This document shows positions 2,947 to 52,593 of a DNA stretch of 64,000 bases, piece by piece. Below the pieces are notes generated by a model. The model searched no databases, had not been told where the DNA came from, and saw nothing but the letters and a program-made list of their open reading frames with translations. The DNA comes from Halorubrum halophilum. Its GTDB lineage: Archaea > Halobacteriota > Halobacteria > Halobacteriales > Haloferacaceae. The stretch spans positions 62,001-126,000 of the forward strand of contig NZ_BBJP01000006.1 of NCBI RefSeq assembly GCF_000739595.1, read 5' to 3'. A program made the translations under genes and the position numbers. The number at the start of each line of letters is the position of its first letter. The stretch's first letter is position 1.

Positions 2947-3041
2947 GTACCGTTCACTGCCCCGAACTGCGACACCAACTCCCGTTATCCCTCGCCGCTA
3001 CGCCTGTACTGAGCGATCGAGGTCTGACGGTCCCCGTTTCC

Positions 3042-3728: not shown

Positions 3729-3865
3729 ACCGGACGTGCGGCGACGACGCGCAACTATCTTCCGTTCGTAGGCGACAAAATAGTGCTAATAATACGGTTC
3801 TGTTGAAACATTGAGAAGTTGGTATGTTACAGTTTCAATCGCTCAGTAAAGGAACAGCGGTGAGT

Positions 3866-4384
3866 GATAGCGGGAGTGGGTATGGTACGCCGCGAGTGGT
3901 GTCGTTTATAAGTGATCGAGTGATGTTGCTGTCGGCTGTTTATACGTGATTGGTGGTGCTGTGGTGACGGCTTTCAAAGCCCCAGCCGTGAGGACCTCCG
4001 AACGTCGTTCCTGCTCGCTTCGCTGCGCGGGCTGCGACGTTCGTGGTCCCGCTCGCTCCGCTCGCGGGACTCGCGCGGCTCGATGCGCTCCTCGGTCAAT
4101 CGCTTCGCTCCTTCCCTGCGGTGCTTCCGTCGCCGTGCTTCGTCCTCACGGCTGCCCCTTTGAATCCCACCCACCCGCAACCGCACCGCAGCCTCACACC
4201 TCCCCAGCCTCGTCGCTGGCGCCGACGGCGCCAGCGACTCCCTCGCACCGTCGGTGAGCGGCCCGCTGGGCCGCTCACCGGGGCGCGCCACCGCATCGTT
4301 CTTTATAAGCGATCGTCACTGTCGCTCATGTCCTTTTAAATACGCTCCTGCCACCGACGATCTGCAATACCCACTCCCGCTATC
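3866..4384. repeat. Dispersed structured element, copy A (with inverted ends)
   Basis: A 519-bp non-coding element in the otherwise gene-free stretch 3729-4463. It is bounded by perfect 18-bp inverted repeats, gatagcgggagtgggtat at 3866-3883 and its complement at 4367-4384. Inside are three strong hairpins. The first has arms 3984-3995 and 4142-4153, enclosed by caaag/ctttg and a CCC/CCC internal loop. The second has 12-bp arms 4212-4223 and 4227-4238. The third has 13-bp arms 4252-4264 and 4268-4280. TTTATA-like boxes occur near both ends. Copies B (15719-15945) and C (52070-52511) share the conserved blocks. No plausible protein is encoded. I saw no target duplication. Confidence 0.85.
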
Positions 4385-4463
4385 GATCAAAAAGCGCTCT
4401 GTATCGACTGGCTGACTCAGACGGAATGCGTCTAAAGAATAGTTTCAACGGAGCCGACGCTAC

Positions 4464-15718: not shown

Positions 15719-15945
15719 CGCTTATAAGTGAGTGAGTAGGGATCGGTTGGGAACTCTTCCAAAGCCCCAGCCGGCGGCGAAGCCGCCGGCGACTGCCCCT
15801 TTGAGTCCCACCCGACCGCACAGCCCCGCACCTCACGCCTCCCCAGCCTCGTCGGCTCGGCGTTTATAAACGCCGAGCCGACTCCCTCGCGCGTGCGACT
15901 CACGCCCTCCGGGCGTTCGTCGGCACGCGCCACCGCATCACTCTG
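15719..15945. repeat. Dispersed structured element, copy B (core only, no inverted ends seen)
   Basis: A shorter relative of copies A and C filling most of the 390-bp gap 15576-15965. It keeps the conserved blocks caaagccccag, ctgcccctttga, cctccccagcctcgtcg and cgcgccaccgca. The first stem is gccggcggc (15770-15778) with gccgccggc (15782-15790). The second is a perfect 32-nt palindrome at 15851-15882. The third, around 15895-15930, is imperfect. The 18-bp inverted ends of the long copies are not visible. The element runs almost to the 3' end of the enoyl-CoA hydratase-like gene at 15966. Confidence 0.8.
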
Positions 15946-15965
15946 GTTCCGGTCCCCGACTTCGC

Positions 15966-52036: not shown

Positions 52037-52069
52037 GCGCGAATCTCGTCTACGGACGGCTTTCTGATC

Positions 52070-52511
52070 GATAGCGGGAGTAGGTATAGCGAGTTGGTTG
52101 TTCGGCTGTTTATAAGCGATTGAGTGGTGTTGCTGTCGGCTGTTTATAACTGCCAGACGGCTGTGTGGTGAACACTTCCAAAGCCCCAGCCGCTGCGGAC
52201 GGCGCACGCTCGCTGCGCTCCTCAGTCGTTCGCTCCGCTCACTCCTTGCGATGCTTACGTCGCCTGCGCCGTCCGCAGCGGCTGCCCCTTTGAGACCCAC
52301 CCGACCGCAACCGCACAGCCTCGCGCCTCCCCAGCCTCGTCGGAGTGGCGCTTATGAGCGCCGCTCCGACTCCCTCGCACCGTCGGTTCGCGGCCCTGCG
52401 GGCCGCTCACCGGGGCGCGCCACCGCACCGTATTTATAAGTAGTCGTCGCCGTCGCTCTCGGCTGTTTAAATACGCTATCGCCGCCATCGATGTGCAATA
52501 CCTACTCCCGC
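52070..52511. repeat. Dispersed structured element, copy C (with inverted ends)
   Basis: A 442-bp relative of copies A and B filling the gene-free gap 52037-52593. The left end gatagcgggagtaggtat (52070-52087) matches copy A except for one base, and its right end atacctactcccgc (52498-52511) carries the complementary change. The first hairpin has perfect 19-bp arms at 52188-52206 and 52265-52283. The second spans 52339-52370 with 14-bp arms (one T-G pair). The third spans 52384-52412. Conserved blocks and TTTATAA/TTTAAATA words are as in copy A. Confidence 0.85.
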
Positions 52512-52593
52512 CGTCTCTCGCCGCTGTGATATACTGAGCGATTAAACGGACACACCTGTCAACTACGGCGGAGTTCAACCGCACCGCACGCCG

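Follow-up and report, generated by a model that had tools for sequence, protein, structure and literature searches.

The window, a 64,000-nucleotide stretch of the Halorubrum halophilum genome (contig NZ_BBJP01000006.1, positions 62,001 to 126,000 of the forward strand), carries three copies, A, B and C, of an element built from hairpins, together with a lone end of its longer form. The features are listed below in coordinates of the window.

Copy A, core element, 3975 to 4295, + strand: clamped stem 1, C-rich tail, stems 2 and 3 and the CGCGCCACCGCA end block (direct reading, family alignment).
Copy A, stem 1 span, 3975 to 4162, + strand: clamp, CCC/CCC internal loop, 12-bp stem and long loop (direct reading; fold and pair counts over 57 copies).
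Copy A, clamp: CAAAG at 3975-3979 and CTTTG at 4158-4162 (direct reading).
Copy A, internal loop: CCC at 3980-3982 and CCC at 4155-4157 (direct reading).
Copy A, stem 1 arms, 12 bp: AGCCGTGAGGAC at 3984-3995 and GTCCTCACGGCT at 4142-4153 (direct reading).
Copy A, stem 2, 4212 to 4238, + strand: GTCGCTGGCGCC at 4212-4223 and GGCGCCAGCGAC at 4227-4238, 12 bp with a 3-nt loop (direct reading, allele listing).
Copy A, stem 3, 4253 to 4279, + strand: GGTGAGCGGCCC and GGGCCGCTCACC (direct reading, stem-3 variants).
Copy A, TATA-like box TTTATA, 3939 to 3944, + strand: 36 nt upstream of the clamp, with a second box at 3905-3910.
Copy A, long (MITE-like) form, 3866 to 4384: inverted repeats GATAGCGGGAGTGGGTAT and ATACCCACTCCCGCTATC at the borders.
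Outer inverted repeat around A, 3796 to 4455: GGTTCTGTTGAAAC at 3796-3809 and GTTTCAACGGAGCC at 4442-4455, inside the stretch missing from the nearest relatives.
Copy B, core element, 15760 to 15950, + strand: stem 1 shortened and loop region missing (direct reading; orthologous site in congeners).
Copy B, clamp: 15760-15764 and 15799-15803 (direct reading).
Copy B, stem 1, 9 bp: GCCGGCGGC at 15770-15778, pairing with 15782-15790; a C.A mismatch shifts the stem off the family register.
Copy B, stem 2, 15851 to 15882, + strand: GTCGGCTCGGCGTTTA at 15851-15866, pairing with 15867-15882, a perfect 16-bp palindrome (direct reading).
Copy C, core element, 52179 to 52430, + strand (direct reading, folds).
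Copy C, clamp: 52179-52183 and 52288-52292 (direct reading).
Copy C, stem 1, 19 bp: AGCCGCTGCGGACGGCGCA at 52188-52206, pairing with 52265-52283 (direct reading).
Copy C, stem 2: GTCGGAGTGGCGCT at 52339-52352, pairing with 52357-52370 with one T.G wobble (direct reading).
Copy C, long (MITE-like) form, 52070 to 52514: bounded by terminal inverted repeats.
Solo long-form end, 2974 to 3020: inverted match to 3835-3881.

Direct reading bears out what the earlier note had described: stem sequences that differ among A, B and C yet stay self-complementary, stem 1 lengths of 12, 9 and 19 bp, and the stem 2 arms of all three copies, including the single wobble in C. Many other copies align across exactly the span of the long form of C (~52065-52512), and the outer inverted repeat of A is one that we take to resemble IS6-family element ends. 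The lone end at 2974-3020 lies after an acyl-CoA dehydrogenase-like gene and has no core element. Two open reading frames run through element A, at 3946-4257 (+ strand, 103 codons) and 3974-4291 (− strand, 105 codons); both are probably spurious. Frames like these likely account for many short hypothetical proteins in annotations, and those called in regions of this kind may be repeat artefacts.

The three copies are genuine, yet they are merely three of about 139: searching the 3.68-Mb genome with the motif TGCCCCTTTGARNCCCACCC at up to two mismatches returned 139 matches, and the reversed-pattern control returned none. In the 90 copies that were read, the parts follow one another as a promoter-like block, CAAAG, CCC, arm 1 and a loop of ~50-70 nt with small helices of its own, and then arm 1', CCC, CTTTG, GAGTCCCACCC, a spacer, CCTCCCCAGCCTCG, stem 2, TCCCTCGC, stem 3 and CGCGCCACCGC. 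The constant frame thus consists of the 5-bp clamp, the CCC/CCC loop, a single C.C mismatch, a tail reading CAGTCCCACCC or GAGTCCCACCC, and the blocks CCTCCCCAGCCTCG and TCCCTCGC. Two or three hairpins sit within this frame. Nearly every copy has arms of its own, yet the arms are Watson-Crick perfect. The CAAAG/CTTTG clamp and the symmetric CCC/CCC loop, earlier said to accompany stem 1 always, hold in 165 and 163, respectively, of the 168 copies from two genomes.

The element was found in 164 of 292 genomes of Halobacteria, including every same-genus genome of the class sample (7 to 166 copies each), and exact matches in a phylum sample gave none outside the Halobacteria. In other genera the motif is GCCCCTTTCAGTCCCACCC and the clamp GAAAG/CTTTC with CCC/CCC (20 of 20 distinct copies), while some congeners carry CGAAG/CTTCG. 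The clamp itself covaries, and these two variants indicate that both of its sides have changed at least twice. With such numbers the repeat is a very abundant component of haloarchaeal chromosomes. A cmscan of the window against Rfam gave nothing at gathering score, with chance-level matches around A and C (E>0.1). Neither phage collections nor IMG/VR gave a match to the element, and a plasmid collection gave three weak partial matches, all to Halobaculum plasmids; in PLSDB no Halorubrum plasmid matched, though Halorubrum plasmids are in that database. The copies sit on the main chromosome; exact Halorubrum-type matches lay on one main contig in both genomes considered (80 of 80 in G009, 33 of 33 in G065), and G065 had one CTTTC-type match on a different contig. 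Literature searching by sequence and topic found no published description of the repeat, which is apparently undescribed so far.

We next consider the pairing itself. In an alignment of 57 distinct copies of standard length (A1), RNAalifold gave 33 pairs, and double changes occur in 21 of these, although the copies are related and these counts are hence not independent events. Paired cells amounted to 98.1%; shuffling the columns lowered this to 85%, and sliding the partners to 31-43%. The covariation score was 0.336, versus 0.105 in the shuffle and at most 0.05 in the slide controls. Four of five covariation measures stood above every slide and every shuffle. The inner nested helices likewise covary, and 54 of the 57 copies retain the one C.C mismatch within the long stem. 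The earlier note would have given up its proposal had a larger alignment lacked significant covariation or had most copies carried broken stems; neither was seen in these copies. Together with the motif count against its control and single-strand folding z-scores of about −6 to −7 for the element, the covariation places the stems far beyond chance.

Does this covariation speak for RNA or for DNA? In a folded RNA, G-U is expected as the common intermediate between Watson-Crick pairs, and A-C is expected to be rare. Calibration on the SRP RNA of 30 genomes of the genus agreed with this, as its varying pairs were 24.0% G-U and 0.5% A-C (223 versus 5). Stem 1 gave 0.6% G-U and 1.3% A-C (8 versus 17), a difference from SRP RNA with a Fisher p of ~1e-79 over cells that are not independent. 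When unique arms of stems 1 and 2 were pooled, 14 G-U and 41 A-C pairs were counted (naive p 0.0004, from related copies); six copies of the own genome in which it was uncertain what to take as the 5' arm were left out of the arm statistics. Pairs from distant genera were 213 Watson-Crick, 2 G-U and 3 A-C, and an RNA-like wobble rate was absent on both strands. That G-U is scarce and no commoner than A-C, unlike in SRP RNA, weakens the folded-RNA reading, and a DNA-level hairpin fits better than RNA. The proposal that covariation is the standard evidence of a selected fold therefore stands in part: genuine covariation extends across the class, yet with G-U so scarce and hairpins swapped as described below it does not serve as standard evidence of RNA folding. 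This carries a warning for RNA discovery, in that covariation was overwhelming (98% paired, 21 double-changed pairs) though the G-U to A-C ratio, calibrated on real RNA from the same genomes, argues against selection on RNA. The slight A-C excess on the + strand equals G-T on the − strand.

The foremost alternative is that the copies are genes of one structured noncoding RNA family, each transcribed from its own TATA box just upstream of the clamp and with the RNA fold as the object of selection. Of 167 Halorubrum copies, 128 have a TATA-like box between −60 and −20 relative to the clamp, mostly at −36, −39 or −42, and a control interval has one in 9 of 167; a GGTGAACACC block directly precedes the clamp in 141 of 167. 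Transcription of the element from this box is possible, and archaeal promoter spacing would place the start ~10 nt before the hairpin. The fixed distance of the box keeps the RNA alternative alive, as do the strong shape-keeping covariation with its nested inner helices and the good folding of the RNA alone (z ~ −6.6). However, G-U is almost missing and is not favoured over A-C at RNA-like rates on either strand, the box was not seen in the copies read from other genera, nothing in Rfam matches at gathering score, and ~140 near-equivalent genes in one genome would be unusual. We consider an RNA family unlikely.

The placement of the copies fits a second alternative. In two genomes, 72 of 133 copies (~54%) lie between convergent genes. 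Among gene pairs in general, 9 of 37 within the window (p ~0.001) and 16 of 107 across all the sequence that was read (p ~3e-10) are convergent, these controls being small and the gene calls crude, from a simple codon-usage caller. Few copies lie between divergent genes, the median distance to gene ends is 80-135 bp, and there is little overlap with called genes. The element may be gene punctuation, a bidirectional terminator or insulator that halts convergent transcripts and helps to settle their 3' ends, and its hairpins are strong on either strand. Yet the same pattern results if insertions into promoters and genes are simply removed by purifying selection. The classical signal for archaeal termination is a U-run and not a hairpin, and no U-run is built into the element. 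Punctuation also leaves the CCC/CCC loop and the promoter-like box unexplained and sits poorly with a copy number that ranges from 7 to 166 within one genus; it appears distinctly improbable as the main account. Replichore-directed orientation was considered and dropped, strands being mixed among the listed copies.

To follow the stems through time, copies of the relative G227 were paired to those of the own genome by their flanks and then aligned. Both flanks could be aligned at 11 orthologous sites, where they are on average 93% identical and the 12-nt arms 70%, close to the 67% of random copy pairs. The stem 2 allele differs at all 11 sites. One stem 2 allele joins many stem 1 arms (for example, 9 copies with 8 arms), and in 5 copies the loop is inverted between the arms. 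Since point mutation with compensation would be too slow for this arm divergence, cassette exchange between copies is the simplest reading: the hairpins seem to be swapped as whole units, and we infer that the donors are other copies. Recombination that replaces hairpins as units can itself produce covariation, so the compensatory counts are not independent. Two papers report that Haloferax volcanii, a polyploid haloarchaeon, carries out gene conversion efficiently (PMC8223754, PMC11276520). Should conversion be what rewrites the arms, close strains with orthologous copies would be a natural system for studying concerted palindrome evolution in polyploid archaea.

The case for selection is strongest for the invariant frame, namely the clamp, the CCC/CCC loop, the C.C mismatch and the C-rich tail. 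The loop and the mismatch lie inside a palindrome and would be erased by any palindrome-perfecting process, yet both are kept, and the frame therefore appears to be selected. We accordingly find it very doubtful that these are old, functionless repeats in which a mutational process alone (template switching, or mismatch correction in extruded palindromes) keeps the arms complementary: purely Watson-Crick covariation, arms that change faster than flanks, inverted loops and efficient conversion in polyploid hosts would all suit such relics, but the same process should erase the nearly invariant CCC/CCC loop and C.C mismatch, and the clamp is identical in almost every copy of the two genomes read.

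Comparison of orthologous sites shows that copies are gained and lost. The nearest relatives (L148-L156), with flanks ~88-94% identical, have 82-107 bp and no element between the genes that flank copy A, and the own genome has 732 bp between the same two genes. In three more distant congeners the gap holds a copy, with stems unlike one another. The B site contains the element or its remnants in some congeners and is empty in others, so that the presence/absence pattern typical of MITEs is seen at both A and B. At site C the neighbouring genes are not adjacent in relatives, and no element lies beside either neighbour except in G227, ~1.2 kb from the left one. Among 82 copies of the own genome, 25 have both inverted-repeat ends (including A and C, mostly ~445 bp apart), 12 have one end and 45 have neither. 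No target duplication was recognised by eye at copies with both ends, and a search, not exhaustive, found no parent transposon with matching ends. The three IS200-type (Y1) transposase genes of the own genome have no recognisable element ends nearby, and we found no transposase, recombinase or binding protein linked to the element.

Several known systems share some of these traits. Like the REP, BIME and REPIN sequences of enterobacteria and pseudomonads, the copies are high-copy extragenic palindromes outside genes and at gene ends, with head-to-head inverted pairs in G138 and paired matches suggesting them in G079 and G050. They differ in being longer (~250-450 bp), with two or three hairpins, hypervariable arms, a CCC/CCC internal loop in place of the known REP head, and a promoter-like box; nor is a RAYT-type transposase linked, with none of the own genome's three Y1 genes showing such an association. 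PATEs of Haloquadratum and Halorubrum lacusprofundi are noncoding, a few hundred bases long and palindromic, can be heterogeneous in sequence, and have as their defining traits near-terminal palindromes akin to IS605-type ends and a lack of terminal inverted repeats (PMC3119063, PMC10544981). The present element is likewise a noncoding haloarchaeal repeat of a few hundred bases with palindromes. It departs from the PATE descriptions, however: its body is itself made of palindromes, terminal inverted repeats bound the long form (both of them in the 25 of 82 copies mentioned above), and no IS200/IS605 gene was seen to be linked. With the MITEs and small mobile repeats (SMRs) of haloarchaea (PMC3119063) it shares a long form, in A and C, that is ~450 bp, noncoding and bounded by inverted repeats, and the lack of copy A from relatives. 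About half of the copies have no inverted repeats, unlike MITEs and SMRs, and neither a parent transposon nor a target duplication was recognised. Integron attC sites, which have conserved ends and shape and variable stem sequence, are read as folded single-stranded DNA. The element resembles them in its conserved ends and shape and its variable stems, a comparison of how it might work rather than a claim of membership, and it differs in its boxes and in showing no cassette array and no integrase.

From these data, we judge with moderate confidence that the element is a noncoding repeat dispersed in Halobacteria, a hairpin at the level of DNA, and would work like REP/BIME or MITE sequences. 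It would be REP/BIME- or MITE-like by resemblance only, membership in any tested family not being claimed. In such a repeat, recombination or gene conversion among the many copies would move the hairpin cassettes and re-perfect them, to which copying inside the folded hairpin may contribute; haloarchaea are polyploid and efficient converters. The frame would be kept by selection because a protein would recognise the clamped DNA hairpin, either as a cruciform or as single-stranded DNA, and this recognition might serve mobility, or the marking or insulating of gene ends. Several results sit uneasily with a DNA element. No transposase, recombinase or binding protein is linked to it, and no precise target duplication was found. 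The TATA-like box at a fixed distance in Halorubrum copies suggests transcription, and possibly an RNA. With about half of the copies lacking TIR-like ends, more than one kind of mobility, or older, fixed copies, would be needed. The excess of A-C over G-U (41 versus 14, in related copies) is left unaccounted for. A bolder form of the DNA reading, which we put forward tentatively as a possibility on the unlikely side, is a class-wide archaeal element recognised by its shape (clamp and C.C loop), with stems actively rewritten as cassettes so that each copy has a different but perfectly paired stem, and with transcription from a promoter of its own possibly helping to expose the single strand. 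If this is true, the element would serve mobility or chromosome organisation and be recognised through its structure, not its sequence.

Variants of the standard architecture were also observed. In other genera, cores occur as head-to-head inverted pairs ~20-25 bp apart, like REPINs (L108 and L109 in G138), and paired matches in G079, G050 and G035 suggest the same. Copies in G147 and G176 (L095-L098, L103) have a second loop type within the clamp, GTCGCT..GACATAT..ATAG.GG..GCGACCAAG, with a long inner helix, and may form a separate subfamily. In L098 and L103, tandem repeats of ~27 bp (GGTGGATTGGTTCACCGGCAGATTCGCC) lie downstream of the tail, so that the core is trailed by them in some other genera. 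Upstream tandem units of ~57 bp (CAAAGCCCCAGCCGCTCGCTTATAAATNGTTG...GGTGAACACCTC), which repeat the promoter-like block and the first arm 1-4 times, precede many copies, among them L009, L018, L019, L042, L133 and L167. Double-hairpin inserts are nested in stems 1-3 of eleven copies (L006, L012, L015, L044, L045, L051, L052, L057, L062, L063 and L082). Each consists of two hairpins with mostly 3-nt loops and a short spacer (e.g. ...GCCGGCGGCTTCGCCGCCGGCTGCCAGAGGGACCTTCGGTCCCTC), varying in its arms and fixed in its shape, and these inserts look like a second, smaller repeat family. One of these copies (L012, at G000:C23:179674) lies ~250 bp from the SRP RNA gene (179940-180251), on the same strand.
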